This document shows, piece by piece, positions 15,616 through 43,400 of a stretch of 64,000 nt of DNA; the stretch's first letter is position 1, and each line of letters starts with the position of its first letter. The position numbers and the translations under genes are program-made. Under the pieces are notes generated by a model. That model was given only the letters and a program-made list of their open reading frames with translations. It was not told where the DNA came from and made no database searches. This DNA is from Zeus faber (taxonomy: Eukaryota > Chordata > Actinopteri > Zeiformes > Zeidae). The DNA is taken from assembly GCA_960531495.1 (NCBI GenBank), contig OY482861.1:682001-746000 (forward strand). Direction: 5' to 3'.

Positions 15616-17624
15616 ACAACATGTATTTGTCGAGGTATGAGCATTTTCAGAACATTGGACGGTTTGCTGTCTAGCTGAATTAGAGAAACACCGAACCATT
15701 GTCTATTCAGAGGTGAATGATTCAGAATGGTGTAGTAGAGCATAGAAATTTTATTAATATGATGAACTATTATGTGCTTCCTAAGTTTTTCTCTCAGATT
15801 TCTATGCCCATCTAACATGTATTTGTGGAGTTAGGATCATTTTCATCATAGTGTGCACATGTGGGAAAAAACGCATTTTCAGCCGATTTAAACGTCGAAA
15901 AGGGGAATTGGTTAAACGCTTCAGTCATTACTCTGTGTGACAGTGTCAGACAGTTTAAATACAATGGTGAACTAGTATATGCTGCTAAAGTGTTGTTTGT
16001 CAACCAGTTTTAGGCCCATCTAACATGTATTTGTCGAGTTATGATCATTTTCATCATTATGTGTACATGTGGGAAAAAACGCATTTTCAGCCGATTTAAA
16101 CGTCGAAAAGGGGAATTGCTTGAACGCTTCAGTCAGTACTCTGTGTGACAGTGTCAGACAGTTTAAATACAATGGTGAACTAGTATATGCTGCTAAAGCG
16201 TTGTTTGTCAAACAGTTTTAGGCCCATACAACATGTATTTGTCGAGGTATGAGCATTTTCAGAACATTGGACGGTTTGCTGTCTAGCTGAATTAGAGAAA
16301 CACCGAACCATTGTCTCTTCAGAGGTGAATGATTCAGAATGCTGCAGTACAGCATTGAAATTTAATTAATATGATGAACTATTATGTGCTTCCTAAGTTT
16401 TTCTCTCAGATTTCTATGCCCATCTAACATGTATTTCTGGAGTTATGATCATTTTCAGAACTTGTGACGGTTTGCTGTCTAGCTGAATTAGAGAAACACC
16501 GAACCATTGTCTCTTCAGAGGTGAATGATTCAGAATGCTGCAGTACAGCATAGAAATTTTATTAATATGATGAACTATTATGTGCTTCTTAAGTGTTTCT
16601 CACAGATTTCTAGGCCCATCTAACATGTATTTGCCGAGTTATGATCATTTTCATCATTGTGTGCACATGTGGGAAAAAACGCATTTTCAGCCGATTTAAA
16701 CGTCGAAAAGGGGAATTGGTTAAACGCTTCAGTCATTACTCTGTGTGACAGTGTCAGACAGTTTAAATACAATGGTGAACTAGTATATGCTGCTAAAGTG
16801 TTGTTTGTCAACCAGTTTTAGGCCCATCTAACATGTATTTGTCGAGTTATGATCATTTTCATCATTATGTGTACATGTGGGAAAAAACGCATTTTCAGCC
16901 GATTTAAACGTCGAAAAGGGGAATTGGTTAAACGTTTCAGTCATTACTCTGTGTGACAGTGTCAGACAGTTTAAATACAATGGTGAACTAGTATATGCTG
17001 CTAAAGCGTTGTTTGTCAAACAGTTTTAGGCCCATCTAACATGTATTTGTCGAGGTATGAGCATTTTCAGAACATTGGACGGTTTGCTGTCTAGCTGAAT
17101 TAGAGAAACACCGAACCTTTGTCTCTTCAGAGGTGAATGATTCAGAATGCTGCAGTACAGCATTGAAATTTAATTAATGTGATGAACTATTATGTGCTTC
17201 CTAAGTTTTTCTCTCAGATTTCTATGCCCATCTAACATGTATTTCTGGAGTTATGATCATTTTCAGAACTTGTGACGGTTTGCTGTCTAGCTGATTTAGA
17301 GAAACACCGAACCATTGTCTCTTCAGAGGTGAATGATTCAGAATGCTGCAGTACAGTATAGAAATTTTATTAATATGATGAACTATTATGTGCTTCCTAA
17401 GTTTTTCTCTCAGATTTCTATGCCCATCTAACATGTATTTGTGGAGTTAGGATCATTTTCATCATAGTGTGCACATGTGGGAAAAAACGCATTTTCAGCC
17501 GATTTAAACGTCGAAAAGGGGAATTGGTTAAACGCTTCAGTCATTACTCTGTGTGACAGTGTCAGACAGTTTAAATACAATGGTGAACTAGTATATGCTG
17601 CTAAAGTGTTGTTTGTCAACCAGT
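15616..17624. repeat. Satellite segment flanking LINE copy 1 on the left
   Basis: Order is B AA BB AA BB, then an A monomer (from 17428) cut by the LINE after about 197 of its 208 bp. The segment matches 29976-31984 at a constant offset of 14360 bp, including private variants: GAATGGTGTAGTAG in the first B (near 15728) and AAACGTTTCAGTC in the A at 16828. These shared mutations show that this flank was copied together with the LINE. One visible difference is TTGCCGAG at 16630 against TTGTGGAG at the matching place in the second copy. Confidence 0.93.
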
Positions 17625-17635
17625 GCGCATGCGCG
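17624..17635 (+). promoter_or_regulatory. NRF-1-type palindrome at the LINE 5' end
   Basis: TGCGCATGCGCG fits the published NRF-1 consensus YGCGCAYGCGCR at every position and contains the perfect 10 bp palindrome GCGCATGCGC. It sits at the very first bases of the element, where LINEs carry internal promoters that start transcription at or near +1. The leading T may be contributed by the satellite flank (the CAGT of the A monomer). A promoter role is inferred from position and motif only. Confidence 0.5.
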
Positions 17636-17828
17636 ACTGGCATCCGACAGCACCAGGAAGTGGAACACCGCGGGTGGAACACGGAAGGGAGTGTTTTCCG
17701 GACTCCAGAACGTCTTTACGGAATCTTTTTCATTTTTATGTGACTGATCCTCCAGCAGTGGTTGTTTTCAGTGCGTGGGGGGTCCCCCCCCCCACACACC
17801 CCAACCACCCTTTTTCTTCAGGTGTGCG
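17625..17828 (+). promoter_or_regulatory. LINE copy 1 5'UTR
   Basis: GC-rich leader of about 204 bp before the ORF1 ATG. It contains the NRF-1-like start, a hairpin-prone G6-T-C10 tract (17777-17793), and a pyrimidine-rich stretch ending in CAG at 17821 that looks like a 3' splice acceptor 7 bp before the ORF1 ATG. An ATG at 17629 opens a 67-codon frame that closes at a TGA (17830-17832) overlapping the ORF1 start as ATGA. No TATA box is seen. Internal promoter activity is expected for a full-length LINE but is not shown by the sequence. Confidence 0.65.
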
Positions 17829-19097
17829 ATGACCGATCACATTGAAACAAACTCTGCGACCGGGAAAATGGATCACGTACGGCTGAATGAAGAAGCAAAC
17901 GCACCAAAAGGTGGCGGCGAAGCAGACAGAAGCTATGGAAAAGAGCTTACAGTCTGTGTGGAACTGCAAGGGGAGGAAAGTATTACGACGACGGAATTGA
18001 TGAAGAACGTGCGAGAGCTCTGCGGCGGTTTACTAGCTTGCCGCACCACCGGAGATCGACGATACGAACTTACAATGAGTGACCAAAGAGGGAAAGATCG
18101 CCTGCTGGAGGGATTCAAGATTGGAGAGGTAAGAATAATAGCCAGAGAATTGAGGAATGACGAGATGGTCGTTTCCTTCCTCAACCTCCCGGCTTATATT
18201 ACTGACGACGAAATACTGGGGAAGCTACATGGTTGGGGCGTGTCGGCCACCTCGCCGATTAAGCGCAGAATGTGGCCAGGAACCCGTATTGCGGACGGTA
18301 CACGGTTTATGAGAGTAAAATTCAATAAATTAGTTCAGAGTCTTCCATACTCTGCAAAGTTTCACACTGCCATAGGGCCAGAGTACTTCCGCGTCATTCA
18401 CGATAGACAATCAAAGGTCTGCCGCCTCTGTATACAGCCTGGACATATCCTACGGGAATGTCCGGAGTTCTTCTGTCGCAAATGTGGATTGCAAGGACAC
18501 TTTGCGAGAGAGTGCCAAAGTGCCAAGAAATGTGACCTGTGTCATAACACTTGGAATGAATGTGACTGCAATAAGAGCGAGGAGGACGGCGGCGCTCCGC
18601 TGGTGACGACGGCCGCTTCAACCGATAGGCAAGGCGAACTGCATAGCGAGGATGAAAATAAAATGGAGACTGAGACGGGGCAGGCGGATGTGAGGGATGA
18701 AACTCAACCTGCAGTGGCGGGTAGTATGAACCAAGCAAGCGAGGTGAGGCTAGATCTGAGCCCCGGCTCTGACGAGGAGAGCGGAGCGAGACGAGGAGCG
18801 AGGCTGAAGGCGGAGGTGGGAGGGGAGGTGCTAGCCTTGGGAGTGGGCCCCACCCCCGCTCCTACCCCGCTGCTGCTGAAGCAAATCAGAGATCCTGCAT
18901 CTGAGATGGGAATGATGAATAGGTCATCATCTCAGTCCCAGCCCCTCCAGCGACTGCCTCTTGATAACCCGATCTCAAGTGCAAGTGAGGCCGAATCCGA
19001 GATAGACTTGTCTCATATGAACAGAATTGGGAAAAGGCTAAGTGAAAAGCAGATGAGAAGGAGAAGCAAGAGAAACAAAGACAGACTTAATAACTAA
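17829..19097 (+). CDS. ORF1: LINE ORF1 protein (zinc-knuckle RNA-binding), copy 1
   Basis: Predicted 422 aa. ORF1 proteins of Tx1-like LINEs bind element RNA and form the ribonucleoprotein particle in which it is retrotransposed. Residues about 38-110 and 112-190 form a two-part N-terminal region; the second part (from MVVSFLNLPAYITDDE) resembles an RRM-like fold. Two classic CX2CX4HX4C knuckles follow at C198-C211 and C216-C229, then a Cys-rich third element at C235-C247 (CDLCHNTWNECDC) that departs from the spacing. Residues about 250-395 are acidic, Pro/Ser-rich and probably disordered, and the tail (RRRSKRNKDR) is strongly basic. I chose the ATG at 17829 because the frame upstream has only a GTG. 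A consensus-like splice donor (GAG/GTAAGAA) lies inside at 18126-18135. The only amino-acid difference I see from copy 2 is Asp3 here against Asn3 there. Confidence 0.9.
   Translation: MTDHIETNSATGKMDHVRLNEEANAPKGGGEADRSYGKELTVCVELQGEESITTTELMKNVRELCGGLLACRTTGDRRYELTMSDQRGKDRLLEGFKIGEVRIIARELRNDEMVVSFLNLPAYITDDEILGKLHGWGVSATSPIKRRMWPGTRIADGTRFMRVKFNKLVQSLPYSAKFHTAIGPEYFRVIHDRQSKVCRLCIQPGHILRECPEFFCRKCGLQGHFARECQSAKKCDLCHNTWNECDCNKSEEDGGAPLVTTAASTDRQGELHSEDENKMETETGQADVRDETQPAVAGSMNQASEVRLDLSPGSDEESGARRGARLKAEVGGEVLALGVGPTPAPTPLLLKQIRDPASEMGMMNRSSSQSQPLQRLPLDNPISSASEAESEIDLSHMNRIGKRLSEKQMRRRSKRNKDRLNN
18126..18135 (+). other. Possible 5' splice donor inside ORF1
   Basis: GAGGTAAGAA fits the vertebrate donor consensus well and falls exactly at an ORF1 codon boundary (after codon 100). 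The acceptor-like site at 19124 could pair with it, giving a putative intron of about 1 kb. Copy 2 has the same site at 32486-32496. No RNA evidence is available. Confidence 0.3.
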
Positions 19098-19134
19098 ATG
19101 TCGAAAATCATACTCTCTTCTCAGTGTGACTCTT
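19098..19134 (+). promoter_or_regulatory. Inter-ORF spacer of LINE copy 1
   Basis: The 37 bp between ORF1 and ORF2. The ORF1 stop is followed directly by an ATG (TAAATG), which opens a 14-codon frame closing at TAG (19140-19142) and overlapping the ORF2 ATG (19135) as ATGATTAG. The spacer also holds a good 3' splice-acceptor-like sequence: AACTAAA (19092-19098), then TACTCTCTTCTCAG ending at 19124. Either feature could help ORF2 be translated, by reinitiation or by splicing. Both are inferences. Confidence 0.45.
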
Positions 19135-22100
19135 ATGATTAGCTTCACTTCTCTAAATGCTAACGGCCTGCGCTCAAAATCGAAAATAGATTCTGTACTG
19201 CAAACTTTGAACTCGGATGTAGTCTGCCTGCAAGAAACTTGGTGGGACCAGGAGCATCACGACTATGTGGCGAACCAGAGAAACAAGCAGGTATTTTCAA
19301 ACCACGGGTCAGCAAGATCATGCGGGGTGGCAATCATATCTAAGATTGCTTTAGGCATGAGTGCTGAAGAGATATACAAAGACGATCAAGGCAGAGTATT
19401 AATTGTAGATTTTTCACTTAATAAACAACGATATAGAATAATTAACATATATGCACCAAACAATGAGAATCATAGAAAGCAGTTTTTTATTGAATTAAAG
19501 AAATGGTACGGAAACAATGTAATAATAACTGGAGACTTTAATGTGGCTCTAACAAAAATGGACGTGTCAGTAAACAATACCTTCAAGAGTGACGCCAGTC
19601 GAACAACCCTAATGAATTTGATAAATCACCATAACCTAGTAGAAATGTGGAGAATCTCAAACCCTTTGAAGCGGGACTTCTCGAGAAGGCAGATTGTAAA
19701 GGGGGTCCTCAAACAGTCCAGAATCGATCTCTGTCTGGCTTCCTCCAGCATTATCAGAGACATTAACAAAATTAAATATGAGTTCAATAGCTGGAGCGAT
19801 CACGCATCTTTATATTGGCAATTAGGGGACGATGGAAGGCCCAGAGGTGGGGGCATCTGGTGCTTCAATGCCAGTCTCCTTGAGGACCAAACCTTCAAAA
19901 AAAAGATAAGGAATCTACTGAGCAATATAACAGATGAATTAGCTGTAGAAGGAAACTACATTAAATCATGGGACGATGTAAAAAGACGAATTAAGAGAGC
20001 CTGTATAAATTATAGTAAAGAGAAAGGATGGCGGGAAGGAATGGAGGAGAGAACATTAAGGGACCTCCTCGCAAAAGAAATTACATTACTTGACCATGAC
20101 CCTGACAGAAGTTGTGCAAAATTTGAAGAATATGAAGCTAAACTTCACTCTTTTGAAAAGAAAAGATGCATAGGAGCAGCTGTTAGAAGTAGATTTAAAA
20201 ATATCACAGATGGGGAGAAATGTACAGCTTTTTTCCTTGGCCTAGAAAAAAAAAACCAAAACAAAGCCAGAATGGGTCCGATTGAAAATAGTAAGGGGGA
20301 AATAATAGTTGAGCAGGAAGACATACTGGAAGAAATACATAGGTATTACGAGAACCTCTTTACTAGTAACAGCTCCAATCCAAAACAAACTAAAGAAATA
20401 CTGGAATGTATTGATAGGGAAATAAATCACATCGACAAAGAAGAGTGCGACACGGTAATCACATTAGCGGAAGTAGAACTGGCAATAGATGGACTAAATA
20501 AGAACAAAAGCCCAGGCCCAGACGGAATCTCGACAGAATTCTACCAGTGCTTCAAAGCCCAGCTGGCCCCCTTGCTGCTAAAACTTTACGCTAGTATTAG
20601 AGTAAACCAGACAACTCCGGACTCCCTCACAAAAGGTATCATCACAATTGTATTTAAGAATAAAGGATGCCGGAACCAACTGAAAAACTATAGGCCAATT
20701 AGCCTACTCAATTCAGATTATAAGATTCTGGCAAAAATTCTGGCTAATAGACTTAAAGCAGTAATAGGCTCAATCATCAGCAATACGCAAACTTACAGTA
20801 TCCCAGGCAGAGATATTACAGACTCCATCAATACAATTAGGGATACAGTAAAAACAATGACTATGCAGAGGGGCCTGCTGCTTGGAGTAGACCTAGAAAA
20901 AGCTTTTGACAGGGTTGAGCATCCGTTCCTCTGGTCCGTAATGGAAAAGTTTGGCTTCGGAGCAAAGTTCATCGATTGGATCAAGGTGTTATATCGAAGT
21001 GCGAGTAGCAGGGTGAAATGCAACGGACTTCTCACCAGGGACATTCGGATCGAGAGGTCTGTGAGACAGGGATGCCCCCTTTCAGCTCTGCTATACACCC
21101 TGGTCGCAGAACCCCTCGCACTCCTAATACTGAAAGACAAAAATATAAAAGGTATCTTAACGCCAAATGGCAACAAAACTAAAATAGTCCAATATGCAGA
21201 CGACATTAATATCATGGTCTCGGATGGTGACAGCATAGACCATGTCTTCAAACACCTAGGGGCCTATGAGAAAGCCTCTGGCGCAAGAATCAATAAAGAA
21301 AAATCTGCAATAATGTTCTGCGGTAAGAATCAAAAAACGATAAACAAATGGGGCCTTAAAGAGACCACAGGGTGCAGAGAAATCTTGGGTGTGTACATTG
21401 GGAAAGACGAGAGTGAAGCAAGAGATAAAACATGGAAGAGTGTGATAATTAAAATACAGTGTACCTTGAACCTGTGGAGGGCGAGGGGGCTTAGTCTAAA
21501 AGGAAAGGTAATAGTATCTAATGCCTTAGTGCTGTCAAAAATTAATCATGCTTTGGGAACCTGTGAGTTGCCCGATTGGGCACTAAATTCATTGAACGGT
21601 GAGATATCCTCCTTTCTTTGGAAGGGTAAGGGAAATATGATCGCCCACAGGACGTTAATTGCTAATAAACGGGAGGGGGGATTAGGGCTGATTGACATTG
21701 GTGCCAAAAGAGACGCACTGAGGGTTAAATTGATAGGGAAATTCTTGGATTCGACCAGGCAGTATCCCTGGGAGGACGCACTCGCAGGCTACCTGGCGGA
21801 GTTTGGGGAGAGGAGCAAATACAATCTCTGTACCCACTACCCCAGAAAAACCTACAGTGGCCTGCCGGGCTTCTACCAGGAGGTGCTGGAGGCATGGGGA
21901 AGGATACTCCCCCACCTCAGACCCGAGTGCAGTAAAAAAGAGCATGTGCTGCAGTTACCTTTCCTCTCGAATCCATGCTTCACCTATAATGGGAGAAACC
22001 TCGTCAGCAGTCACTTGACGGCAGCAGGCCTAACAAGAGTGGGACAGGTGACCGACCACAAAGGGAACTTTGATATAGGGAATGTACTTTGGGAATTAGA

Positions 22101-22929
22101 CAGATGGAAGGTGCAATACAGGGAAAAACTGATTGTCTCTTTCGGGGAAAAATTTGATCAAAGCCTACGACCTGAGTGGCGAGGCATGCTCAAAGAGAAA
22201 GGACCCAAGGTGCAGGATGATGCCCTGAACTTCCTCCTGTGCCTTAGAGGGAAATTCCCCACCATCCAATCAGTGAAAACCAGAGACTGGTATAGATTAC
22301 TCATTTCAAAGATTGTGACAATTCCAGCTTCAGAAAAGGCCTGGTCAAGGATATTTCCTGGCTATTCAATTAGAAATATATGGAACAACATGGAAATCCC
22401 TTTTGCCACATCAGCCATCTTCCACCTGGATTTCAAGATAAGGCACAGGAGGATTTTTACTGGCATCATCCTGCATCAAATACACAAAGACTTGCACAAG
22501 AGGGAGTGTGCGGTCTGCATGGAAGAAGCAGAAGACATTGAGCACCTGTTCCTTAGGTGCACGGCCCTCACGAACTATAGGGAGAGGGTCAAGAGCCTAC
22601 TGGTGGAACATTGTGGCCTTAGGAGACTAACAGGGCTTACATGGGACTGGGCCTACATGTTTGGCCCCCCCCCCAAAACAAAGAGTCCAACGGAAAACTT
22701 ACTGATAAACACTGTGCTGGCATTTGCCAGGCGCGCAACATGGACAAGAAGGAACTTGGCACTATATGAGGGTAGAGACGTAAGCATACAAAGCCTCTTT
22801 GGAAACTCACTAAAAGCCCACCTATCGTTGGTATATGGAGGAAACAAAGACCTTTTTGTAAGCCAATTCATGCAACAAACTACCCTACTCCAGGAAACTG
22901 AATGCCACTCTCTCTCCTTCGCATTCTGA
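19135..22929 (+). CDS. ORF2: LINE ORF2 protein (APE endonuclease and reverse transcriptase), copy 1
   Basis: Predicted 1264 aa. The enzyme nicks target DNA and copies element RNA from the exposed 3' end (target-primed reverse transcription). Endonuclease residues 1-225 show SLNANG (N8), QETWW (E34), GDFN (D134, N136), SRIDL and SDH (221-223). Reverse transcriptase, about 430-730, shows SPGPDG (459-464), NYRPISLLN, DLEKAFD (D586), RQGCPLS (644-650) and YADD (687-690), giving catalytic residues D586, D689 and D690. A C-terminal CX2CX8HX4C motif lies at C1125, C1128, H1137 and C1142. Length and order fit L1/Tx1-type ORF2. I chose the ATG at 19135; the frame extends three codons upstream only to a GTG. 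Slippage-prone A10 (20246-20255) and C10 (22665-22674) tracts are intact. No RNase H domain is recognised. Confidence 0.95.
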   Translation: MISFTSLNANGLRSKSKIDSVLQTLNSDVVCLQETWWDQEHHDYVANQRNKQVFSNHGSARSCGVAIISKIALGMSAEEIYKDDQGRVLIVDFSLNKQRYRIINIYAPNNENHRKQFFIELKKWYGNNVIITGDFNVALTKMDVSVNNTFKSDASRTTLMNLINHHNLVEMWRISNPLKRDFSRRQIVKGVLKQSRIDLCLASSSIIRDINKIKYEFNSWSDHASLYWQLGDDGRPRGGGIWCFNASLLEDQTFKKKIRNLLSNITDELAVEGNYIKSWDDVKRRIKRACINYSKEKGWREGMEERTLRDLLAKEITLLDHDPDRSCAKFEEYEAKLHSFEKKRCIGAAVRSRFKNITDGEKCTAFFLGLEKKNQNKARMGPIENSKGEIIVEQEDILEEIHRYYENLFTSNSSNPKQTKEILECIDREINHIDKEECDTVITLAEVELAIDGLNKNKSPGPDGISTEFYQCFKAQLAPLLLKLYASIRVNQTTPDSLTKGIITIVFKNKGCRNQLKNYRPISLLNSDYKILAKILANRLKAVIGSIISNTQTYSIPGRDITDSINTIRDTVKTMTMQRGLLLGVDLEKAFDRVEHPFLWSVMEKFGFGAKFIDWIKVLYRSASSRVKCNGLLTRDIRIERSVRQGCPLSALLYTLVAEPLALLILKDKNIKGILTPNGNKTKIVQYADDINIMVSDGDSIDHVFKHLGAYEKASGARINKEKSAIMFCGKNQKTINKWGLKETTGCREILGVYIGKDESEARDKTWKSVIIKIQCTLNLWRARGLSLKGKVIVSNALVLSKINHALGTCELPDWALNSLNGEISSFLWKGKGNMIAHRTLIANKREGGLGLIDIGAKRDALRVKLIGKFLDSTRQYPWEDALAGYLAEFGERSKYNLCTHYPRKTYSGLPGFYQEVLEAWGRILPHLRPECSKKEHVLQLPFLSNPCFTYNGRNLVSSHLTAAGLTRVGQVTDHKGNFDIGNVLWELDRWKVQYREKLIVSFGEKFDQSLRPEWRGMLKEKGPKVQDDALNFLLCLRGKFPTIQSVKTRDWYRLLISKIVTIPASEKAWSRIFPGYSIRNIWNNMEIPFATSAIFHLDFKIRHRRIFTGIILHQIHKDLHKRECAVCMEEAEDIEHLFLRCTALTNYRERVKSLLVEHCGLRRLTGLTWDWAYMFGPPPKTKSPTENLLINTVLAFARRATWTRRNLALYEGRDVSIQSLFGNSLKAHLSLVYGGNKDLFVSQFMQQTTLLQETECHSLSFAF

Positions 22930-23024
22930 TAGGATAGAGAATGGGAGAAAAAGGGAAAACATGTATTTCCCAAGTGTTTAAAAATGTTTTCTTGGCATAA
23001 TTGTTACTGTTGATGATTCTGTAT

Positions 23025-23057
<33 letters not shown>
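22930..23057 (+). other. LINE copy 1 3'UTR and poly(A) tail
   Basis: About 103 bp of 3'UTR followed by 25 A residues (23033-23057), the last two of which may be target bases. No AATAAA is present; TATAAA abuts the tail. The 3'UTR contains AACATGTATTT (22958-22968), identical to the satellite bases at the right junction (23056-23066). There is no hairpin or tandem-repeat tail of the CR1 or RTE kind. Confidence 0.85.
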
Positions 23058-23261
23058 CATGTATTTGTCGAGTTATGATCATTTTCATCATTATGTGTAC
23101 ATGTGGGAAAAAACGCATTTTCAGCCGATTTAAACGTCGAAAAGGGGAATTGGTTAAACGCTTCAGTCATTACTCTGTGTGACAGTGTCAGACAGTTTAA
23201 ATACAATGGTGAACTAGTATATGCTGCTAAAGTGTTGTTTGTCAACCAGTTTTAGGCCCAT
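23058..23261. repeat. Chimeric A monomer to the right of LINE copy 1
   Basis: This single monomer begins like the full-length A to the right of LINE copy 2 (CATTATGTGTACATGTGGG) but continues like the following short A (TTGGTTAAACGC, then AGTGTTGTTTGTCAACC). In the second copy these are two separate monomers (37420-37623 and 37624-37821). Exactly one 198 bp unit is therefore missing here or extra there, with the exchange point in the identical stretch at about 23110-23152. Confidence 0.85.
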
Positions 23262-26200
23262 GTAAAATGTATTTGTCGAGTTATGATTATTTTCATCATT
23301 GTGTGCACATGTGGGAAAAAACGCATTTTCAGCCGATTTAAACGTCGAAAAGGAGAATTGGTTAAACGCTTCAGTCATTACTCTGTGTGACAGTGTCAGA
23401 CAGTTTAAATACAATGGTGATCTAGTATATGCTGCTAAAGCGTTGTTTGTCAAACAGTTTTAGGCCCATACAACATGTATTTGTCGAGGTATGAGCATTT
23501 TCAGAACATTGGACGGTTTGCTGTCTAGCTGAATTAGAGAAACACCGAACCATTGTCTCTTCAGAGGTGAATGATTCAGAATGCTGCAGTACAGCATAGA
23601 AATTTTATTAATATGATGAACTATTATGTGCTTCTTAAGTGTTTCTCACAGATTTCTAGGCCCATCTAACATGTATTTGTGGAGTTATGATCATTTTCAT
23701 CATTGTGTGCACATGTGGGAAAAAACGCATTTTCAGCCGATTTAAACGTCGAAAAGGGGAATTGGTTAAACGCTTCAGTCATTACTCTGTGTGACAGTGT
23801 CAGACAGTTTAAATACATTGGTGAACTAGTATATGCTGCTAAAGTGTTGTTTGTCAACCAGTTTTAGGCCCATCTAACATGTATTTGTCGAGTTATGATC
23901 ATTTTCATCATTATGTGTACATGTGGGAAAAAACGCATTTTCAGCCGATTTAAACGTCGAAAAGGGGAATTGCTTGAACGCTTCAGTCAGTACTCTGTGT
24001 GACAGTGTCAGACAGTTTAAATACAATGGTGAACTAGTATATGCTGCTAAAGCGTTGTTTGTCAACCAGTTTTAGGCCCATCTAACATGTATTTGTGGAG
24101 TTATGATCATTTTCATCATTGTGGGAAAAAACGCATTTTCAGCCGATTTAAACGTCGAAAAGGGGAATTGGTTAAACGCTTCAGTCATTACTCTGTGTGA
24201 CAGTGTCAGACAGTTTAAATACAATGGTGAACTAGTATATGCTGCTAAATTGTTGTTTGTCAAACAGTTTTAGGCCCATGTAAAATGTATTTGTCGAGTT
24301 ATGATTATTTTCATCATTGTGTGCACATGTGGGAAAAAACGCATTTTCAGCCGATTTAAACGTCGAAAAGGGGAATTGGTTAAACGCTTCAGTCATTACT
24401 CTGTGTGACAGTGTCAGACAGTTTAAATACAATGGTGAACTAGTATATGCTGCTAAAGTGTTGTTTGTCAACCAGTTTTAGGCCCATGTAAAATGTATTT
24501 GTCGAGTTATGATTATTTTCATCATTGTGTGCACATGTGGGAAAAAACGCATTTTCAGCCGATTTAAACGTCGAAAAGGAGAATTGGTTAAACGCTTCAG
24601 TCATTACTCTGTGTGACAGTGTCAGACAGTTTAAATACAATGGTGAACTAGTATATGCTGCTAAAGCGTTGTTTGTCAAACAGTTTTAGGCCCATACAAC
24701 ATGTATTTGTCGAGGTATGAGCATTTTCAGAACATTGGACGGTTTGCTGTCTAGCTGAATTAGAGAAACACCGAACCATTGTCTCTTCAGAGGTGAATGA
24801 TTCAGAATGCTGCAGTACAGCATAGAAATTTTATTAATATGATGAACTATTATGTGCTTCTTAAGTGTTTCTCACAGATTTCTAGGCCCATCTAACATGT
24901 ATTTGTGGAGTTATGATCATTTTCATCATTGTGTGCACATGTGGGAAAAAACGCATTTTCAGCCGATTTAAACGTCGAAAAGGGGAATTGGTTAAACGCT
25001 TCAGTCATTACTCTGTGTGACAGTGTCAGACAGTTTAAATACATTGGTGAACTAGTATATGCTGCTAAAGTGTTGTTTGTCAACCAGTTTTAGGCCCATC
25101 TAACATGTATTTGTCGAGTTATGATCATTTTCATCATTATGTGTACATGTGGGAAAAAACGCATTTTCAGCCGATTTAAACGTCGAAAAGGGGAATTGCT
25201 TCAACGCTTCAGTCATTTCTCTGTGTGACAGTGTCAGACAGTTTAAATACAATGGTGAACTAGTATATGCTGCTAAAGCGTTGTTTGTCAAACAGTTTTA
25301 GGCCCATACAACATGTATTTGTCGAGGTATGAGCATTTTCAGAACATTGGACGGTTTGCTGTCTAGCTGAATTAGAGAAACACCGAACCATTGTCTATTC
25401 AGAGGTGAATGATTCAGAATGCTGTAGTAGAGCATAGAAATTTTATTAATATGATGAACTATTATGTGCTTCCTAAGTTTTTCTCTCAGATTTCTATGCC
25501 CATCTAACATGTATTTGTGGAGTTAGGATCATTTTCATCATAGTGTGCACATGTGGGAAAAAACGCATTTTCAGCCGATTTAAACGTCGAAAAGGGGAAT
25601 TGGTTAAACGCTTCAGTCATTACTCTGTGTGACAGTGTCAGACAGTTTAAATACAATGGTGAACTAGTATATGCTGCTAAAGTGTTGTTTGTCAACCAGT
25701 TTTAGGCCCATCTAACATGTATTTGTCGAGTTATGATCATTTTCATCATTATGTGTACATGTGGGAAAAAACGCATTTTCAGCCGATTTAAACGTCGAAA
25801 AGGGGAATTGCTTGAACGCTTCAGTCAGTACTCTGTGTGACAGTGTCAGACAGTTTAAATACAATGGTGAACTAGTATATGCTGCTAAAGCGTTGTTTGT
25901 CAAACAGTTTTAGGCCCATACAACATGTATTTGTCGAGGTATGAGCATTTTCAGAACATTGGACGGTTTGCTGTCTAGCTGAATTAGAGAAACACCGAAC
26001 CATTGTCTCTTCAGAGGTGAATGATTCAGAATGCTGCAGTACAGCATTGAAATTTAATTAATATGATGAACTATTATGTGCTTCCTAAGTTTTTCTCTCA
26101 GATTTCTATGCCCATCTAACATGTATTTCTGGAGTTATGATCATTTTCAGAACTTGTGACGGTTTGCTGTCTAGCTGAATTAGAGAAACACCGAACCATT

Positions 26201-33495: not shown

Positions 33496-36400
33496 ATGAT
33501 TAGCTTCACTTCTCTAAATGCTAACGGCCTGCGCTCAAAATCGAAAATAGATTCTGTACTGCAAACTTTGAACTCGGATGTAGTCTGCCTGCAAGAAACT
33601 TGGTGGGACCAGGAGCATCACGACTATGTGGCGAACCAGAGAAACAAGCAGGTATTTTCAAACCACGGGTCAGCAAGATCATGCGGGGTGGCAATCATAT
33701 CTAAGATTGCTTTAGGCATGAGTGCTGAAGAGATATACAAAGACGATCAAGGCAGAGTATTAATTGTAGATTTTTCACTTAATAAACAACGATATAGAAT
33801 AATTAACATATATGCACCAAACAATGAGAATCATAGAAAGCAGTTTTTTATTGAATTAAAGAAATGGTACGGAAACAATGTAATAATAACTGGAGACTTT
33901 AATGTGGCTCTAACAAAAATGGACGTGTCAGTAAACAATACCTTCAAGAGTGACGCCAGTCGAACAACCCTAATGAATTTGATAAATCACCATAACCTAG
34001 TAGAAATGTGGAGAATCTCAAACCCTTTGAAGCGGGACTTCTCGAGAAGGCAGATTGTAAAGGGGGTCCTCAAACAGTCCAGAATCGATCTCTGTCTGGC
34101 TTCCTCCAGCATTATCAGAGACATTAACAAAATTAAATATGAGTTCAATAGCTGGAGCGATCACGCATCTTTATATTGGCAATTAGGGGACGATGGAAGG
34201 CCCAGAGGTGGGGGCATCTGGTGCTTCAATGCCAGTCTCCTTGAGGACCAAACCTTCAAAAAAAAGATAAGGAATCTACTGAGCAATATAACAGATGAAT
34301 TAGCTGTAGAAGGAAACTACATTAAATCATGGGACGATGTAAAAAGACGAATTAAGAGAGCCTGTATAAATTATAGTAAAGAGAAAGGATGGCGGGAAGG
34401 AATGGAGGAGAGAACATTAAGGGACCTCCTCGCAAAAGAAATTACATTACTTGACCATGACCCTGACAGAAGTTGTGCAAAATTTGAAGAATATGAAGCT
34501 AAACTTCACTCTTTTGAAAAGAAAAGATGCATAGGAGCAGCTGTTAGAAGTAGATTTAAAAATATCACAGATGGGGAGAAATGTACAGCTTTTTTCCTTG
34601 GCCTAGAAAAAAAAAACCAAAACAAAGCCAGAATGGGTCCGATTGAAAATAGTAAGGGGGAAATAATAGTTGAGCAGGAAGACATACTGGAAGAAATACA
34701 TAGGTATTACGAGAACCTCTTTACTAGTAACAGCTCCAATCCAAAACAAACTAAAGAAATACTGGAATGTATTGATAGGGAAATAAATCACATCGACAAA
34801 GAAGAGTGCGACACGGTAATCACATTAGCGGAAGTAGAACTGGCAATAGATGGACTAAATAAGAACAAAAGCCCAGGCCCAGACGGAATCTCGACAGAAT
34901 TCTACCAGTGCTTCAAAGCCCAGCTGGCCCCCTTGCTGCTAAAACTTTACGCTAGTATTAGAGTAAACCAGACAACTCCGGACTCCCTCACAAAAGGTAT
35001 CATCACAATTGTATTTAAGAATAAAGGATGCCGGAACCAACTGAAAAACTATAGGCCAATTAGCCTACTCAATTCAGATTATAAGATTCTGGCAAAAATT
35101 CTGGCTAATAGACTTAAAGCAGTAATAGGCTCAATCATCAGCAATACGCAAACTTACAGTATCCCAGGCAGAGATATTACAGACTCCATCAATACAATTA
35201 GGGATACAGTAAAAACAATGACTATGCAGAGGGGCCTGCTGCTTGGAGTAGACCTAGAAAAAGCTTTTGACAGGGTTGAGCATCCGTTCCTCTGGTCCGT
35301 AATGGAAAAGTTCGGCTTCGGAGCAAAGTTCATCGATTGGATCAAGGTGTTATATCGAAGTGCGAGTAGCAGGGTGAAATGCAACGGACTTCTCACCAGG
35401 GACATTCGGATCGAGAGGTCTGTGAGACAGGGATGCCCCCTTTCAGCTCTGCTATACACCCTGGTCGCAGAACCCCTCGCACTCCTAATACTGAAAGACA
35501 AAAATATAAAAGGTATCTTAACGCCAAATGGCAACAAAACTAAAATAGTCCAATATGCAGACGACATTAATATCATGGTCTCGGATGGTGACAGCATAGA
35601 CCATGTCTTCAAACACCTAGGGGCCTATGAGAAAGCCTCTGGCGCAAGAATCAATAAAGAAAAATCTGCAATAATGTTCTGCGGTAAGAATCAAAAAACG
35701 ATAAACAAATGGGGCCTTAAAGAGACCACAGGGTGCAGAGAAATCTTGGGTGTGTACATTGGGAAAGACGAGAGTGAAGCAAGAGATAAAACATGGAAGA
35801 GTGTGATAATTAAAATACAGTGTACCTTGAACCTGTGGAGGGCGAGGGGGCTTAGTCTAAAAGGAAAGGTAATAGTATCTAATGCCTTAGTGCTGTCAAA
35901 AATTAATCATGCTTTGGGAACCTGTGAGTTGCCCGATTGGGCACTAAATTCATTGAACGGTGAGATATCCTCCTTTCTTTGGAAGGGTAAGGGAAATATG
36001 ATCGCCCACAGGACGTTAATTGCTAATAAACGGGAGGGGGGATTAGGGCTGATTGACATTGGTGCCAAAAGAGACGCACTGAGGGTTAAATTGATAGGGA
36101 AATTCTTGGATTCGACCAGGCAGTATCCCTGGGAGGACGCACTCGCAGGCTACCTGGCGGAGTTTGGGGAGAGGAGCAAATACAATCTCTGTACCCACTA
36201 CCCCAGAAAAACCTACAGTGGCCTGCCGGGCTTCTACCAGGAGGTGCTGGAGGCATGGGGAAGGATACTCCCCCACCTCAGACCCGAGTGCAGTAAAAAA
36301 GAGCATGTGCTGCAGTTACCTTTCCTCTCGAATCCATGCTTCACCTATAATGGGAGAAACCTCGTCAGCAGTCACTTGACGGCAGCAGGCCTAACAAGAG

Positions 36401-37290
36401 TGGGACAGGTGACCGACCACAAAGGGAACTTTGATATAGGGAATGTACTTTGGGAATTAGACAGATGGAAGGTGCAATACAGGGAAAAACTGATTGTCTC
36501 TTTCGGGGAAAAATTTGATCAAAGCCTACGACCTGAGTGGCGAGGCATGCTCAAAGAGAAAGGACCCAAGGTGCAGGATGATGCCCTGAACTTCCTCCTG
36601 TGCCTTAGAGGGAAATTCCCCACCATCCAATCAGTGAAAACCAGAGACTGGTATAGATTACTCATTTCAAAGATTGTGACAATTCCAGCTTCAGAAAAGG
36701 CCTGGTCAAGGATATTTCCTGGCTATTCAATTAGAAATATATGGAACAACATGGAAATCCCTTTTGCCACATCAGCCATCTTCCACCTGGATTTCAAGAT
36801 AAGGCACAGGAGGATTTTTACTGGCATCATCCTGCATCAAATACACAAAGACTTGCACAAGAGGGAGTGTGCGGTCTGCATGGAAGAAGCAGAAGACATT
36901 GAGCACCTGTTCCTTAGGTGCACGGCCCTCACGAACTATAGGGAGAGGGTCAAGAGCCTACTGGTGGAACATTGTGGCCTTAGGAGACTAACAGGGCTTA
37001 CATGGGACTGGGCCTACATGTTTGGCCCCCCCCCCAAAACAAAGAGTCCAACGGAAAACTTACTGATAAACACTGTGCTGGCATTTGCCAGGCGCGCAAC
37101 ATGGACAAGAAGGAACTTGGCACTATATGAGGGTAGAGACGTAAGCATACAAAGCCTCTTTGGAAACTCACTAAAAGCCCACCTATCGTTGGTATATGGA
37201 GGAAACAAAGACCTTTTTGTAAGCCAATTCATGCAACAAACTACCCTACTCCAGGAAACTGAATGCCACTCTCTCTCCTTCGCATTCTGA
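33496..37290 (+). CDS. ORF2: LINE ORF2 protein (APE endonuclease and reverse transcriptase), copy 2
   Basis: Predicted 1264 aa, apparently identical in protein sequence to copy 1; the one nucleotide change I notice (35313, TTT to TTC, Phe) is silent. Endonuclease (N8, E34, D134, SDH 221-223), reverse transcriptase (D586, YADD 687-690) and C-terminal CCHC (1125-1142) are all present. The A10 and C10 tracts have the same length as in copy 1. Two intact copies this similar mean sequence alone cannot tell which is parental. Confidence 0.95.
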   Translation: MISFTSLNANGLRSKSKIDSVLQTLNSDVVCLQETWWDQEHHDYVANQRNKQVFSNHGSARSCGVAIISKIALGMSAEEIYKDDQGRVLIVDFSLNKQRYRIINIYAPNNENHRKQFFIELKKWYGNNVIITGDFNVALTKMDVSVNNTFKSDASRTTLMNLINHHNLVEMWRISNPLKRDFSRRQIVKGVLKQSRIDLCLASSSIIRDINKIKYEFNSWSDHASLYWQLGDDGRPRGGGIWCFNASLLEDQTFKKKIRNLLSNITDELAVEGNYIKSWDDVKRRIKRACINYSKEKGWREGMEERTLRDLLAKEITLLDHDPDRSCAKFEEYEAKLHSFEKKRCIGAAVRSRFKNITDGEKCTAFFLGLEKKNQNKARMGPIENSKGEIIVEQEDILEEIHRYYENLFTSNSSNPKQTKEILECIDREINHIDKEECDTVITLAEVELAIDGLNKNKSPGPDGISTEFYQCFKAQLAPLLLKLYASIRVNQTTPDSLTKGIITIVFKNKGCRNQLKNYRPISLLNSDYKILAKILANRLKAVIGSIISNTQTYSIPGRDITDSINTIRDTVKTMTMQRGLLLGVDLEKAFDRVEHPFLWSVMEKFGFGAKFIDWIKVLYRSASSRVKCNGLLTRDIRIERSVRQGCPLSALLYTLVAEPLALLILKDKNIKGILTPNGNKTKIVQYADDINIMVSDGDSIDHVFKHLGAYEKASGARINKEKSAIMFCGKNQKTINKWGLKETTGCREILGVYIGKDESEARDKTWKSVIIKIQCTLNLWRARGLSLKGKVIVSNALVLSKINHALGTCELPDWALNSLNGEISSFLWKGKGNMIAHRTLIANKREGGLGLIDIGAKRDALRVKLIGKFLDSTRQYPWEDALAGYLAEFGERSKYNLCTHYPRKTYSGLPGFYQEVLEAWGRILPHLRPECSKKEHVLQLPFLSNPCFTYNGRNLVSSHLTAAGLTRVGQVTDHKGNFDIGNVLWELDRWKVQYREKLIVSFGEKFDQSLRPEWRGMLKEKGPKVQDDALNFLLCLRGKFPTIQSVKTRDWYRLLISKIVTIPASEKAWSRIFPGYSIRNIWNNMEIPFATSAIFHLDFKIRHRRIFTGIILHQIHKDLHKRECAVCMEEAEDIEHLFLRCTALTNYRERVKSLLVEHCGLRRLTGLTWDWAYMFGPPPKTKSPTENLLINTVLAFARRATWTRRNLALYEGRDVSIQSLFGNSLKAHLSLVYGGNKDLFVSQFMQQTTLLQETECHSLSFAF

Positions 37291-37388
37291 TAGGATAGAG
37301 AATGGGAGAAAAAGGGAAAACATGTATTTCCCAAGTGTTTAAAAATGTTTTCTTGGCATAATTGTTACTGTTGATGATTCTGTATTTT

Positions 37389-37419
<31 letters not shown>
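37291..37419 (+). other. LINE copy 2 3'UTR and poly(A) tail
   Basis: Same 3'UTR as copy 1, including AACATGTATTT (37319-37329). The end reads TATATT before 25 A's (37395-37419), against TATATA in copy 1. The tail runs directly into CATGTATTTGTCGAG of the satellite, without a duplicated target sequence. Confidence 0.85.
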
Positions 37420-40400
37420 CATGTATTTGTCGAGTTATGATCATTTTCATCATTATGTGTACATGTGGGAAAAAACGCATTTTCAGCCGATTTAAACGTC
37501 GAAAAGGGGAATTGCTTGAACGCTTCAGTCAGTACTCTGTGTGACAGTGTCAGACAGTTTAAATACAATGGTGAACTAGTATATGCTGCTAAAGCGTTGT
37601 TTGTCAACCAGTTTTAGGCCCATCTAACATGTATTTGTGGAGTTATGATCATTTTCATCATTGTGGGAAAAAACGCATTTTCAGCCGATTTAAACGTCGA
37701 AAAGGGGAATTGGTTAAACGCTTCAGTCATTACTCTGTGTGACAGTGTCAGACAGTTTAAATACAATGGTGAACTAGTATATGCTGCTAAAGTGTTGTTT
37801 GTCAACCAGTTTTAGGCCCATGTAAAATGTATTTGTCGAGTTATGATTATTTTCATCATTGTGTGCACATGTGGGAAAAAACGCATTTTCAGCCGATTTA
37901 AACGTCGAAAAGGAGAATTGGTTAAACGCTTCAGTCATTACTCTGTGTGACAGTGTCAGACAGTTTAAATACAATGGTGATCTAGTATATGCTGCTAAAG
38001 CGTTGTTTGTCAAACAGTTTTAGGCCCATACAACATGTATTTGTCGAGGTATGAGCATTTTCAGAACATTGGACGGTTTGCTGTCTAGCTGAATTAGAGA
38101 AACACCGAACCATTGTCTCTTCAGAGGTGAATGATTCAGAATGCTGCAGTACAGCATAGAAATTTTATTAATATGATGAACTATTATGTGCTTCTTAAGT
38201 GTTTCTCACAGATTTCTAGGCCCATCTAACATGTATTTGTGGAGTTATGATCATTTTCATCATTGTGTGCACTTGTGGGAAAAAACGCATTTTCAGCCGA
38301 TTTAAACGTCGAAAAGGGGAATTGGTTAAACGCTTCAGTCATTACTCTGTGTGACAGTGTCAGACAGTTTAAATACATTGGTTAACTAGTATATGCTGCT
38401 AAAGTGTTGTTTGTCAACCAGTTTTAGGCCCATCTAACATGTATTTGTCGAGTTATGATCATTTTCATCATTATGTGTACATGTGGGAAAAAACGCATTT
38501 TCAGCCGATTTAAACGTCGAAAAGGGGAATTGCTTGAACGCTTCAGTCAGTACTCTGTGTGACAGTGTCAGACAGTTTAAATACAATGGTGAACTAGTAT
38601 ATGCTGCTAAAGCGTTGTTTGTCAACCAGTTTTAGGCCCATCTAACATGTATTTGTGGAGTTATGATCATTTTCATCATTGTGGGAAAAAACGCATTTTC
38701 AGCCGATTTAAACGTCGAAAAGGGGAATTGGTTAAACGCTTCAGTCATTACTCTGTGTGACAGTGTCAGACAGTTTAAATACAATGGTGAACTAGTATAT
38801 GCTGCTAAATTGTTGTTTGTCAAACAGTTTTAGGCCCATGTAAAATGTATTTGTCGAGTTATGATTATTTTCATCATTGTGTGCACATGTGGGAAAAAAC
38901 GCATTTTCAGCCGATTTAAACGTCGAAAAGGGGAATTGGTTAAACGCTTCAGTCATTACTCTGTGTGACAGTGTCAGACAGTTTAAATACAATGGTGAAC
39001 TAGTATATGCTGCTAAAGTGTTGTTTGTCAACCAGTTTTAGGCCCATGTAAAATGTATTTGTCGAGTTATGATTATTTTCATCATTGTGTGCACATGTGG
39101 GAAAAAACGCATTTTCAGCCGATTTAAACGTCGAAAAGGAGAATTGGTTAAACGCTTCAGTCATTACTCTGTGTGACAGTGTCAGACAGTTTAAATACAA
39201 TGGTGAACTAGTATATGCTGCTAAAGCGTTGTTTGTCAAACAGTTTTAGGCCCATACAACATGTATTTGTCGAGGTATGAGCATTTTCAGAACATTGGAC
39301 GGTTTGCTGTCTAGCTGAATTAGAGAAACACCGAACCATTGTCTCTTCAGAGGTGAATGATTCAGAATGCTGCAGTACAGCATAGAAATTTTATTAATAT
39401 GATGAACTATTATGTGCTTCTTAAGTGTTTCTCACAGATTTCTAGGCCCATCTAACATGTATTTGTGGAGTTATGATCATTTTCATCATTGTGTGCACAT
39501 GTGGGAAAAAACGCATTTTCAGCCGATTTAAACGTCGAAAAGGGGAATTGGTTAAACGCTTCAGTCATTACTCTGTGTGACAGTGTCAGACAGTTTAAAT
39601 ACATTGGTGAACTAGTATATGCTGCTAAAGTGTTGTTTGTCAACCAGTTTTAGGCCCATCTAACATGTATTTGTCGAGTTATGATCATTTTCATCATTAT
39701 GTGTACATGTGGGAAAAAACGCATTTTCAGCCGATTTAAACGTCGAAAAGGGGAATTGCTTAAACGCTTCAGTCATTTCTCTGTGTGACAGTGTCAGACA
39801 GTTTAAATACAATGGTGAACTAGTATATGCTGCTAAAGCGTTGTTTGTCAAACAGTTTTAGGCCCATACAACATGTATTTGTCGAGGTATGAGCATTTTC
39901 AGAACATTGGACGGTTTGCTGTCTAGCTGAATTAGAGAAACACCGAACCATTGTCTATTCAGAGGTGAATGATTCAGAATGCTGTAGTAGAGCATAGAAA
40001 TTTTATTAATATGATGAACTATTATGTGCTTCCTAAGTTTTTCTCTCAGATTTCTATGCCCATCTAACATGTATTTGTGGAGTTAGGATCATTTTCATCA
40101 TAGTGTGCACATGTGGGAAAAAACGCATTTTCAGCCGATTTAAACGTCGAAAAGGGGAATTGGTTAAACGCTTCAGTCATTACTCTGTGTGACAGTGTCA
40201 GACAGTTTAAATACAATGGTGAACTAGTATATGCTGCTAAAGTGTTGTTTGTCAACCAGTTTTAGGCCCATCTAACATGTATTTGTCGAGTTATGATCAT
40301 TTTCATCATTATGTGTACATGTGGGAAAAAACGCATTTTCAGCCGATTTAAACGTCGAAAAGGGGAATTGCTTGAACGCTTCAGTCAGTACTCTGTGTGA

Positions 40401-43400
40401 CAGTGTCAGACAGTTTAAATACAATGGTGAACTAGTATATGCTGCTAAAGCGTTGTTTGTCAAACAGTTTTAGGCCCATACAACATGTATTTGTCGAGGT
40501 ATGAGCATTTTCAGAACATTGGACGGTTTGCTGTCTAGCTGAATTAGAGAAACACCGAACCATTGTCTCTTCAGAGGTGAATGATTCAGAATGCTGCAGT
40601 ACAGCATTGAAATTTAATTAATATGATGAACTATTATGTGCTTCCTAAGTTTTTCTCTCAGATTTCTATGCCCATCTAACATGTATTTCTGGAGTTATGA
40701 TCATTTTCAGAACTTGTGACGGTTTGCTGTCTAGCTGAATTAGAGAAACACCGAACCATTGTCTCTTCAGAGGTGAATGATTCAGAATGCTGCAGTACAG
40801 CATAGAAATTTTATTAATATGATGAGCTATTATGTGCTTCTTAAGTGTTTCTCACAGATTTCTAGGCCCATCTAACATGTATTTGTGGAGTTATGATCAT
40901 TTTCATCATTGTGTGCACATGTGGGAAAAAACGCATTTTCAGCCGATTTAAACGTCGAAAAGGGGAATTGGTTAAACGCTTCAGTCATTACTCTGTGTGA
41001 CAGTGTCAGACAGTTTAAATACAATGGTGAACTAGTATATGCTGCTAAAGTGTTGTTTGTCAACCAGTTTTAGGCCCATCTAACATGTATTTGTCGAGTT
41101 ATGATCATTTTCATCATTATGTGTACATGTGGGAAAAAACGCATTTTCAGCCGATTTAAACGTCGAAAAGGGGAATTGCTTGAACGCTTCAGTCAGTACT
41201 CTGTGTGACAGTGTCAGACAGTTTAAATACAATGGTGAACTAGTAGATGCTGCTAAAGCGTTGTTTGTCAACCAGTTTTAGGCCCATCTAACATGTATTT
41301 GTGGAGTTATGATCATTTTCATCATTGTGGGAAAAAACGCATTTTCAGCCGATTTAAACGTCGAAAAGGGGAATTGGTTAAACGCTTCAGTCATTACTCT
41401 GTGTGACAGTGTCAGACAGTTTAAATACAATGGTGAACTAGTATATGCTGCTAAAGTGTTGTTTGTCAACCAGTTTTAGGCCCATGTAAAATGTATTTGT
41501 CGAGTTATGATTATTTTCATCATTGTGTGCACATGTGGGAAAAAACGCATTTTCAGCCGATTTAAACGTCGAAAAGGAGAATTGGTTAAACGCTTCAGTC
41601 ATTACTCTGTGTGACAGTGTCAGACAGTTTAAATACAATGGTGATCTAGTATATGCTGCTAAAGCGTTGTTTGTCAAACAGTTTTAGGCCCATACAAAAT
41701 GTATTTGTCGAGGTATGAGCATTTTCAGAACATTGGACGGTTTGCTGTCTAGCTGAATTAGAGAAACACCGAACCATTGTCTCTTCAGAGGTGAATGATT
41801 CAGAATGCTGCAGTACAGCATAGAAATTTTATTAATATGATGAACTATTATGTGCTTCTTAAGTGTTTCTCACAGATTTCTAGGCCCATCTAATATGTAT
41901 TTGTGGAGTTATGATCATTTTCATCATTGTGTGCACATGTGGGAAAAAACGCATTTTCAGCCGATTTAAACGTCGAAAAGGGGAATTGGTTAAACGCTTC
42001 AGTCATTACTCTGTGTGACAGTGTCAGACAGTTTAAATACATTGGTGAACTAGTATATGCTGCTAAAGTGTTGTTTGTCAACCAGTTTTAGGCCCATCTA
42101 ACATGTATTTGTCGAGTTATGATCATTTTCATCATTATGTGTACATGTGGGAAAAAACGCTTTTTCAGCCGATTTAAACGTCGAAAAGGGGAATTGCTTG
42201 AACGCTTCAGTCAGTACTCTGTGTGACAGTGTCAGACAGTTTAAATACAATGGTGAACTAGTATATGCTGCTAAAGCGTTGTTTGTCAACCAGTTTTAGG
42301 CCCATCTAACATGTATTTGTGGAGTTATGATCATTTTCATCATTGTGGGAAAAAATGCATTTTCAGCCGATTTAAACGTCGAAAAGGGGAATTGGTTAAA
42401 CGCTTCAGTCATTACTCTGTGTGACAGTGTCAGACAGTTTAAATACAATGGTGAACTAGTATATGCTGCTAAATTGTTGTTTGTCAAACAGTTTTAGGCC
42501 CATGTAAAATGTATTTGTCGAGTTATGATTATTTTCATCATTGTGTGCACATGTGGGAAAAAACGCATTTTCAGCCGATTTAAACGTCGAAAAGGGGAAT
42601 TGGTTAAACGCTTCAGTCATTACTCTGTGTGACAGTGTCAGACAGTTTAAATACAATGGTGAACTAGTATATGCTGCTAAAGTGTTGTTTGTCAACCAGT
42701 TTTAGGCCCATGTAAAATGTATTTGTCGAGTTATGATTATTTTCATCATTGTGTGCACATGTGGGAAAAAACGCATTTTCAGCCGATTTAAACGTCGAAA
42801 AGGAGAATTGGTTAAACGCTTCAGTCATTACTCTGTGTGACAGTGTCAGACAGTTTAAATACAATGGTGAACTAGTATATGCTGCTAAAGCGTTGTTTGT
42901 CAAACAGTTTTAGGCCCATACAACATGTATTTGTCGAGGTATGAGCATTTTCAGAACATTGGACGGTTTGCTGTCTAGCTGAATTAGAGAAACACCGAAC
43001 CATTGTCTCTTCAGAGGTGAATGATTCAGAATGCTGCAGTACAGCATTGAAATTTAATTAATATGATGAACTATTATGTGCTTCCTAAGTTTTTCTCTCA
43101 GATTTCTATGCCCATCTAACATGTATTTCTGGAGTTATGATCATTTTCAGAACTTATGACGGTTTGCTGTCTAGCTGAATTAGAGAAACACCGAACCATT
43201 GTCTCTTCAGAGGTGAATGATTCAGAATGCTGCAGTACAGCATAGAAATTTAATTAATATGATGAACTATTATGTGCTTCTTAAGTGTTTCTCACAGATT
43301 TCTAGGCCCATCTAACATGTATTTGTGGAGTTATGATCATTTTCATCATTGTGTGCACATGTGGGAAAAAACGCATTTTCAGCCGATTTAAACGTCGAAA

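Follow-up and report, generated by a model that had tools for sequence, protein, structure and literature searches.

Two nearly identical long interspersed nuclear elements (LINEs) lie inside one satellite array on contig OY482861.1 (C17) of the Zeus faber assembly GCA_960531495.1, within a stretch of 64,000 nucleotides (C17:682001-746000, referred to here as the window; positions given without a contig are counted from its first letter). The locus raises the question of how such elements come to multiply in satellite DNA: by insertion at a preferred site, or by being copied together with the satellite around them. Both routes appear to have been taken. The LINE probably aims at the satellite and then gets copied along with it, and we hold with good, though not complete, confidence that it is a young Tx1-like element which targets one monomer-boundary variant and has been multiplied by retrotransposition as well as by array recombination.

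The two copies, A and B (Table 1), differ by two substitutions (17835 and 20952) and two one-base indels (in a C-run at 17784 and at a T adjoining the poly(A) at 23032) in 5.43 kb, in agreement with an earlier, sequence-only reading of this DNA that had counted about four differing positions in 5.4 kb. That reading had also described a satellite match on both sides, at offsets of 14360 and 14560, and alignment gave 14360-14362 on the left and inside the LINE and 14560 on the right, the step of 200 being made up of an extra 198-bp monomer (37610) in copy B and two single bases. On the left, 10 monomers carried three substitutions, all inside a 48-bp stretch of a single monomer, a pattern that a small conversion tract would produce. 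On the right, 18 monomers counted from 23248 and 37808 showed six mismatches and the 19th showed four, the match ending near 27100/41660; no other near-identical run in the window is as long as this one, in which none of the 18 monomers has more than two differences. The duplicated block of satellite plus LINE thus measures about 11.6 kb. Two markers that the sequence-only reading had called private to the pair, GAATGGTGTAGTAG and AAACGTTTCAGTC, were each recovered exactly twice in the window, on the + strand (genome-wide, GAATGGTGTAGTAG had two more matches, compared with three for its reversed control, at loci without a satellite anchor).

The state of the site before insertion could be read 15-21 kb past copy B, where two paralogues (E1 and E2), which the sequence-only reading had not noted, agree with B's flanks to the left and right of the site but are uninterrupted by a LINE. 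The empty site is AACCAGT-TTTAGGCCCATCT-AACATG and the filled site AACCAGT-LINE-(A)25-CATG, from which it follows that 13 bp of target were deleted, or up to 15, because the A's are shared, and that there was no target duplication. Since AACCAGT is found in both empty paralogues, it precedes the insertion at the window site and was not borne there by the LINE. A flank variant at 16935/31295, inside marker AAACGTTTCAGTC, is present beside both LINE copies and in neither empty paralogue. This variant, the equal poly(A) length of 25 and the near-identity of 10 monomers on the left and 18 on the right support what the sequence-only reading had proposed for the pair, a single insertion that was later duplicated with its satellite flanks. 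The order of events is copying of a LINE-less segment, insertion into one of the copies, duplication of that copy, and loss of a monomer from copy A. That the two LINEs inserted separately, each by targeting, after their segments had been duplicated would be in keeping with an element that looks site-directed, and for which a common junction is expected, with the existence of empty duplicated segments, and with the similar divergence of LINE (2/5431) and flank (9/~5760, rearranged LINE monomer excluded; Fisher p = 0.067). However, the blocks hold 10 and 12 other AACCAGT sites, so that a hit on the same site would happen roughly once in 11, and neither the equal poly(A) nor a flank variant that the empty copies lack is what two separate events would lead one to expect; we consider this explanation very improbable.

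Copy B holds the older arrangement, as the c monomer downstream of its LINE is also present in both empty paralogues. In copy A, the first downstream monomer is a composite, identical over its left 95 bp to B's LINE monomer and over the right 130 bp compared to B's c monomer, without a mismatch in either part; copy A has therefore lost one repeat by exchange between neighbouring monomers. Between the two blocks lies a spacer with no in-register homology to the segment before A or after B. A simple tandem duplication would leave no such spacer, and one has to assume either exchanges at a later time or placement of the copy a short way off. The proposal of a repeating 14.4 kb unit of A/B satellite plus LINE did not survive these comparisons, there being only two copies, an unrelated spacer of 2.8 kb and a homology block of about 11.6 kb; the satellite block that holds the window had no LINE copies but these two, nor did the 264 kb read contain a further one. 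A satellite higher-order repeat with an embedded LINE was likewise set aside, as the LINE-bearing unit as a whole shows no tandem in-register repetition. Other near-identical runs, of 13 and 10 monomers, without a LINE and of similar identity, occur in the window beside the run of 18, and segmental duplication is on that account general in this array. With only two copies that are 99.93% alike, one might suspect an artefact of assembly or haplotype, the same locus or its two haplotypes having been placed twice, but the blocks are set apart by a clean one-monomer deletion and by clustered flank substitutions, they have different surroundings, and the same array contains those other, LINE-free segmental repeats; an artefact is therefore unlikely, if less remote than a pair of separate insertions.

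Copies beyond the window were sought with the first 30 bases of the LINE, which gave 189 matches (≤2 mismatches) in the 803 Mb assembly. The 100 of the 189 5′ ends that were listed were exact and lay on 12 contigs up to C14, no more than 2.83 Mb from a contig end (the four listed on C14 were 97-521 kb from the contig start, distance there being measured from the start only). From these 100 places, 20 were hand-picked for their 5′ side, on 11 contigs other than the window's and with minority orientations included. The 5′ junction fell at the same satellite base in 20/20 sampled copies (19 with TTTGTCAACCAGT, one with TTTGTTAACCAGT). A 3′ end was present at the expected distance in 13/20, and all 13 were seen by eye to join the same satellite position, with poly(A) lengths of 12-44. 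The sequence-only reading had taken identical junctions as evidence of duplication and had not remarked that the LINE looks satellite-specific; given that 20/20 left and 13/13 readable right junctions are the same in different satellite, on 11 other contigs, identical junctions are no evidence of duplication, whereas shared flanks are. In five copies (L045 on C1, L047 and L048 on C2, L062 on C11 and L063 on C12) the expected 3′ end was still within the LINE body, and these copies therefore contain extra sequence; the C13 copy (L064) was already in satellite at that point and is therefore shorter. At the expected 3′ end of the C3 copy L029 (L049) there was a different AT-rich repeat, unlike the LINE or the satellite of the window.

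The two sides of these junctions have diverged to very different extents. Substitutions in the first 60 nt of the LINE had a median of 0% (22 copies, maximum 1.7%) and in the last up to 150 nt again a median of 0% (15 copies, maximum 1.5%), compared with medians of 10.2% for the 192 nt of satellite upstream (maximum 41.8%) and 6.1% for the 150 nt downstream (maximum 48.9%). Body pieces of 287-501 nt from the five copies with extra sequence, whose 5′ flanks are of other types, were 98.6-99.0% identical to the window LINE. As the divergence of LINE and flank is so unequal, the sites most likely differed before the LINE arrived, and this points to repeated targeted insertion acting besides recombination. 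Separate copies at one sequence position with diverged flanks, even though not all copies are independent, are the mark of a target-specific LINE, and by this comparison independent copies appear to have inserted at one position of the satellite. The earlier view that the array amplifies the LINE by recombination stands in so far as the window pair, and private insertions shared between contigs C1 and C2 and between C11 and C12, are concerned; recombination as the only process does not fit LINE ends at about 0% beside satellite at 6-10%.

Several observations weigh against targeting as the source of all copies. Sampling began from an intact 5′ end, which leaves 5′-truncated copies outside the sample wherever they are located, and 20/189 copies were read on the 5′ side and 13 on the 3′ side. 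The 22 copies represent only 6-14 flank types, depending on the cut applied to differences in 270 bp (14 types at 0, 12 at 1, 11 at 4, 10 at 7, 8 at 8 and 6 at 13). Private extra sequence inside the LINE is shared within each of two sets, L045, L047 and L048 on the one hand (99.8-100% identical to each other over 501 nt, foreign part included) and L062 and L063 on the other (99.8% over 499 nt), and the 5′ flanks of these five copies fall into groups that are identical or one base apart across contigs. Insertions common to C1 and C2, and to C11 and C12, mean that LINE-bearing satellite has moved between chromosomes: some copies were spread by recombination and not by retrotransposition. L033, L039, L040 and L041 have in common a one-base deletion close to the 3′ end, and their poly(A) tails are short, which hints at common descent in spite of their differing 5′ flanks. 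L034, L035 and L044 have identical 5′ flanks, yet on the 3′ side L034 and L035 disagree at 23/200 positions, a mismatch that would result from exchange inside the LINE or from separate insertions but that neither targeting nor spread by recombination accounts for in a simple way.

Identical or near-identical 270-bp 5′ flanks recur across contigs in three groups (L025-L028 with L032; L029, L042 and L043; L034, L035 and L044), within which 3′ flanks and poly(A) lengths can differ.

These points could be accommodated by one ancestral insertion, spread to chromosome ends by interchromosomal exchange and array amplification, its junctions inherited, its copies kept alike by gene conversion and its flanks overwritten by local satellite. 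Such a history would account for the private insertions within LINE copies of C1/C2 and C11/C12, for 5′ flanks that are the same or nearly so across C1/C2/C4, C3/C11/C12 and C5/C13, and for AACCAGT at every filled site, and the window pair shows that LINE-bearing segments do duplicate; because of the private insertions shared between contigs, our confidence in targeting was lowered and this alternative raised. It would, however, require a homogenisation confined to the LINE and ending exactly at both junctions, with LINE ends about 0% diverged beside flanks that differ by a median of 6-10% and by up to 49%, and with the bodies of five copies of other flank types only 1.0-1.4% from the window copy; nor does it sit easily with poly(A) tails that vary from 12 to 44 or with downstream bodies of both A and b type. 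A single insertion is accordingly an unlikely source of all the copies, although the most credible of the alternatives weighed here, and repeated targeted insertion combined with recombination is preferred.

The base sequence at the point of entry is uniform. AACCAGT precedes the LINE at 22/22 filled sites, compared with 72/259 monomer boundaries in the window (AAACAGT at 94, b-type at 90) and 145/702 boundaries in 264 kb. The probability of AACCAGT throughout by chance is about 8e-7 for 11 flank types and about 5e-4 for six, on a frequency taken from one array only. Chance positions for the sampled copies were rejected (2e-12 if 21 independent events are drawn at 72/259, events that are not all independent). 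As common descent would give this fraction too, AACCAGT does not separate targeting from common descent, on which it is the divergence of ends and flanks that bears. Downstream, A and b bodies are both accepted, copy L032/L052 having a b-type body, and the A's give way to CATG or TGT where the right flank opens, which suggests that AACATG and AAAATG forms are both used.

Target-primed reverse transcription at a single position of the ~200-bp satellite would explain these features. An opening in the bottom strand, between ACATGTT and AGATGGG, would let the T's prime on the poly(A), and one in the top strand, after AACCAGT, would cost the target TTTAGGCCCATCT (13-15 bp) without producing a target duplication. 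Both the strand order of cleavage and the endonuclease as the source of specificity are what we infer from the sequences. One such insertion in the window was subsequently duplicated with about 6 kb of flanking satellite by array recombination, copy A then losing a monomer through exchange between two neighbouring monomers, and elsewhere too recombination carries filled sites between chromosome ends.

Each LINE is about 5.43 kb long, with short 5′ and 3′ untranslated regions (UTRs) and two open reading frames (ORF1 and ORF2), which are open in both copies. In protein family searches, run on copy A, ORF1 matched Pfam zf-CCHC (E 1.7e-8) and had no PDB relative at E 0.001. CCHC zinc knuckles in ORF1 are a feature of the Tx1 clade, to which Keno, with zinc knuckles in its ORF1, belongs. 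ORF2, in which the first ATG of copy A is at 19135, contains an apurinic/apyrimidinic (AP)-type endonuclease (Pfam Exo_endo_phos, E 7.7e-14) and a reverse transcriptase with YADD (Pfam RVT_1, E 8.4e-36), while a C-terminal zf-RVT match scored 25.4 bits, under the Pfam cut-off of 27.5. Its closest PDB relatives were of human L1 ORF2p (E 2.2e-84); viral_contigs yielded no relative. The endonuclease matched PDB 2v0r, ‘LTX’, best (E 5.6e-21, with the hairpin ungapped) and wild-type L1 1vyb second (2.9e-17). Judging from its name and from ‘LTx1’ in an extract of PMC8565326, 2v0r is probably the Tx1 loop on the L1 endonuclease. According to the same extract, loop replacement gave L1 no new specificity, and hence the hairpin loop alone is unlikely to explain targeting. 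Domains and this one hairpin comparison, rather than a tree, suggest that the LINE is Tx1-like, and its open frames and the near-zero divergence of its ends suggest that it is active.

Two short sequences at the ends of the LINE may be mentioned. The 3′ UTR contains AACATGTATTTCC (22958-22970 in copy A, 37319-37331 in copy B), of which the first 11 bases equal the target sequence directly downstream of the insertion point and which sits after a short A-run, like a filled junction; the 13-mer turns up once in the satellite too, in a variant at 6858. Its presence may reflect a target mimic, a 3′ transduction of old date or mere coincidence. The first bases of the LINE (17625-17640) form the palindrome GCGCATGCGC, which resembles an NRF-1-type site and together with the flanking CCAGT extends across the junction as CCAGT-GCGCATGCGCG-ACTGG.

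Table 1. Positions of the LINE copies, their satellite flanks and the empty-site paralogues (window positions unless a contig is named; aa, amino acids)
Feature	Position	Strand	Remarks
Satellite block holding the window	C17:612447-766894		window = C17:682001-746000
Satellite array	1..64000	+	A monomers 208 bp, b monomers 196 bp, c monomers 198 bp
Left satellite flank of copy A	15525..17624	+	matches 29885-31984
LINE copy A	17625-~23055	+	appears full length, with both UTRs, two open ORFs and poly(A)
LINE copy A poly(A)	23033-23057		25 A; last two A may be the target's
Right satellite flank of copy A	23058..27100	+	matches 37420-~41660 minus one 198-bp monomer
Spacer	27120..29884	+	~2.8 kb between the two blocks
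Left satellite flank of copy B	29885..31984	+	matches 15525-17624
LINE copy B	31985-~37417	+	poly(A) 37395-37419, 25 A
Right satellite flank of copy B	37420..41660	+	matches 23058-~27100 plus one 198-bp monomer
c monomer, 198 bp	37610..37807	+	in copy B and both empty paralogues; lost from copy A
ORF1	copy A 17829..19097; copy B 32190-33458	+	422 aa, CCHC zinc knuckle
ORF2	copy A 19126..22929; copy B 33487-37290	+	1267 aa from GTG
Empty-site paralogue E1	50821-53454	+	intact target TTTAGGCCCATCT begins 52439, monomer 52436
Empty-site paralogue E2	57102-59136	+	intact target TTTAGGCCCATCT in monomer 58118

A single head-to-tail satellite fills all 64 kb of the window, broken at two places. Monomers measured 208, 196 or 198 bp in 255/260 cases, with very few indels; A and b monomers are about half alike, a median of 8-9 positions differ between monomers within A or within b, and the c monomer is an A monomer with a 10-bp deletion. 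Clustering separated A1, A2, b1 and b2, which follow one another in a regular but not invariable order (A1, A2, optional c and A2, b2, optional b1), b preceding nearly every A1 and b2 nearly every b1. No CENP-B box core was found on either strand of the window, no tRNA genes or Rfam families were detected at gathering score, and the satellite core had no match in viral_contigs and genome_contigs. Past the main block, at C17:770649-774186, the same satellite returns briefly in inverted orientation, with 19 anchors on the opposite strand, and beyond that, to C17:846000, a very AT-rich array with periods of about 12, 32 and 40 bp extends for more than 70 kb.

Comparison with known systems, made here from extracts of the papers cited, places the Zeus faber LINE closest to the L1-CS elements in the CUS-TR24 satellite of Cuscuta europaea, for which compound amplification was weighed against targeting and targeting favoured (PMC8091179). 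L1-CS is likewise an L1-group LINE that prefers a satellite monomer and has undergone later segmental duplications, but it belongs to a plant lineage, is heterogeneous, has 91% of its elements no more than 10 kb from the satellite and uses two adjacent preferred monomer regions (PMC8091179), whereas the Zeus faber LINE, apparently Tx1-like, was found at one position in all sampled copies, in one sequence variant, as near-identical copies and with a target deletion of 13-15 bp. A zinc-knuckle ORF1 is common to it and to Tx1 and Keno, target-specific LINEs of the Tx1 clade. With these it would share, besides, an AP-type endonuclease, a fixed site and a repetitive target (PMC4640811, PMC3747384). 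The Tx1-group targets named in those extracts are ribosomal RNA, tRNA and U2 snRNA genes, spliced-leader exons, transposons, microsatellites and telomeric repeats (PMC4640811, PMC3747384), among which a ~200-bp satellite does not figure. YURE, too, is a LINE that enters a satellite through sequence preference, though that satellite is derived from the U2 gene, the preference is relatively weak and the element is kin to those with restriction-like endonucleases (Utopia/NeSL; PMC4640811). Celine, a centromeric LINE of poplar, is similarly concentrated in repetitive chromosome regions, but 43/58 full-length copies have target duplications, each of its own sequence, and there is no fixed site (PMC11288735). 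A literature search that reached few subscription papers encountered no satellite-targeted L1-group LINE besides that of Cuscuta. The Zeus faber element brings together what is known from Cuscuta and from the Tx1 group, a Tx1-like LINE with a satellite target, base-exact in the sampled copies and accompanied by a target deletion.

Unequal exchange and conversion are generally taken to drive the evolution of satellite arrays, but the events inside an array are difficult to mark or to date. A LINE at a fixed base with empty paralogues kilobases away supplies each event with a filled or empty state, a poly(A) length and a clock of 5.4 kb, and the private insertions in some copies trace exchange between chromosomes. 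The system suggests an enzyme for which one or a few bases suffice to distinguish satellite variants, and a mobile element whose own target is undergoing amplification. Taken furthest, the LINE would be specialised on one variant of a terminal satellite, cutting only AACCAGT boundaries, replacing a fixed 13-15 bp, and gaining copies through array recombination, also interchromosomal, of filled and empty boundaries alike; we lean only slightly towards this stronger form. Were it true, satellite homogenisation would control the LINE's supply of targets, and the LINE in turn would tag individual satellite haplotypes with dated markers of single events.

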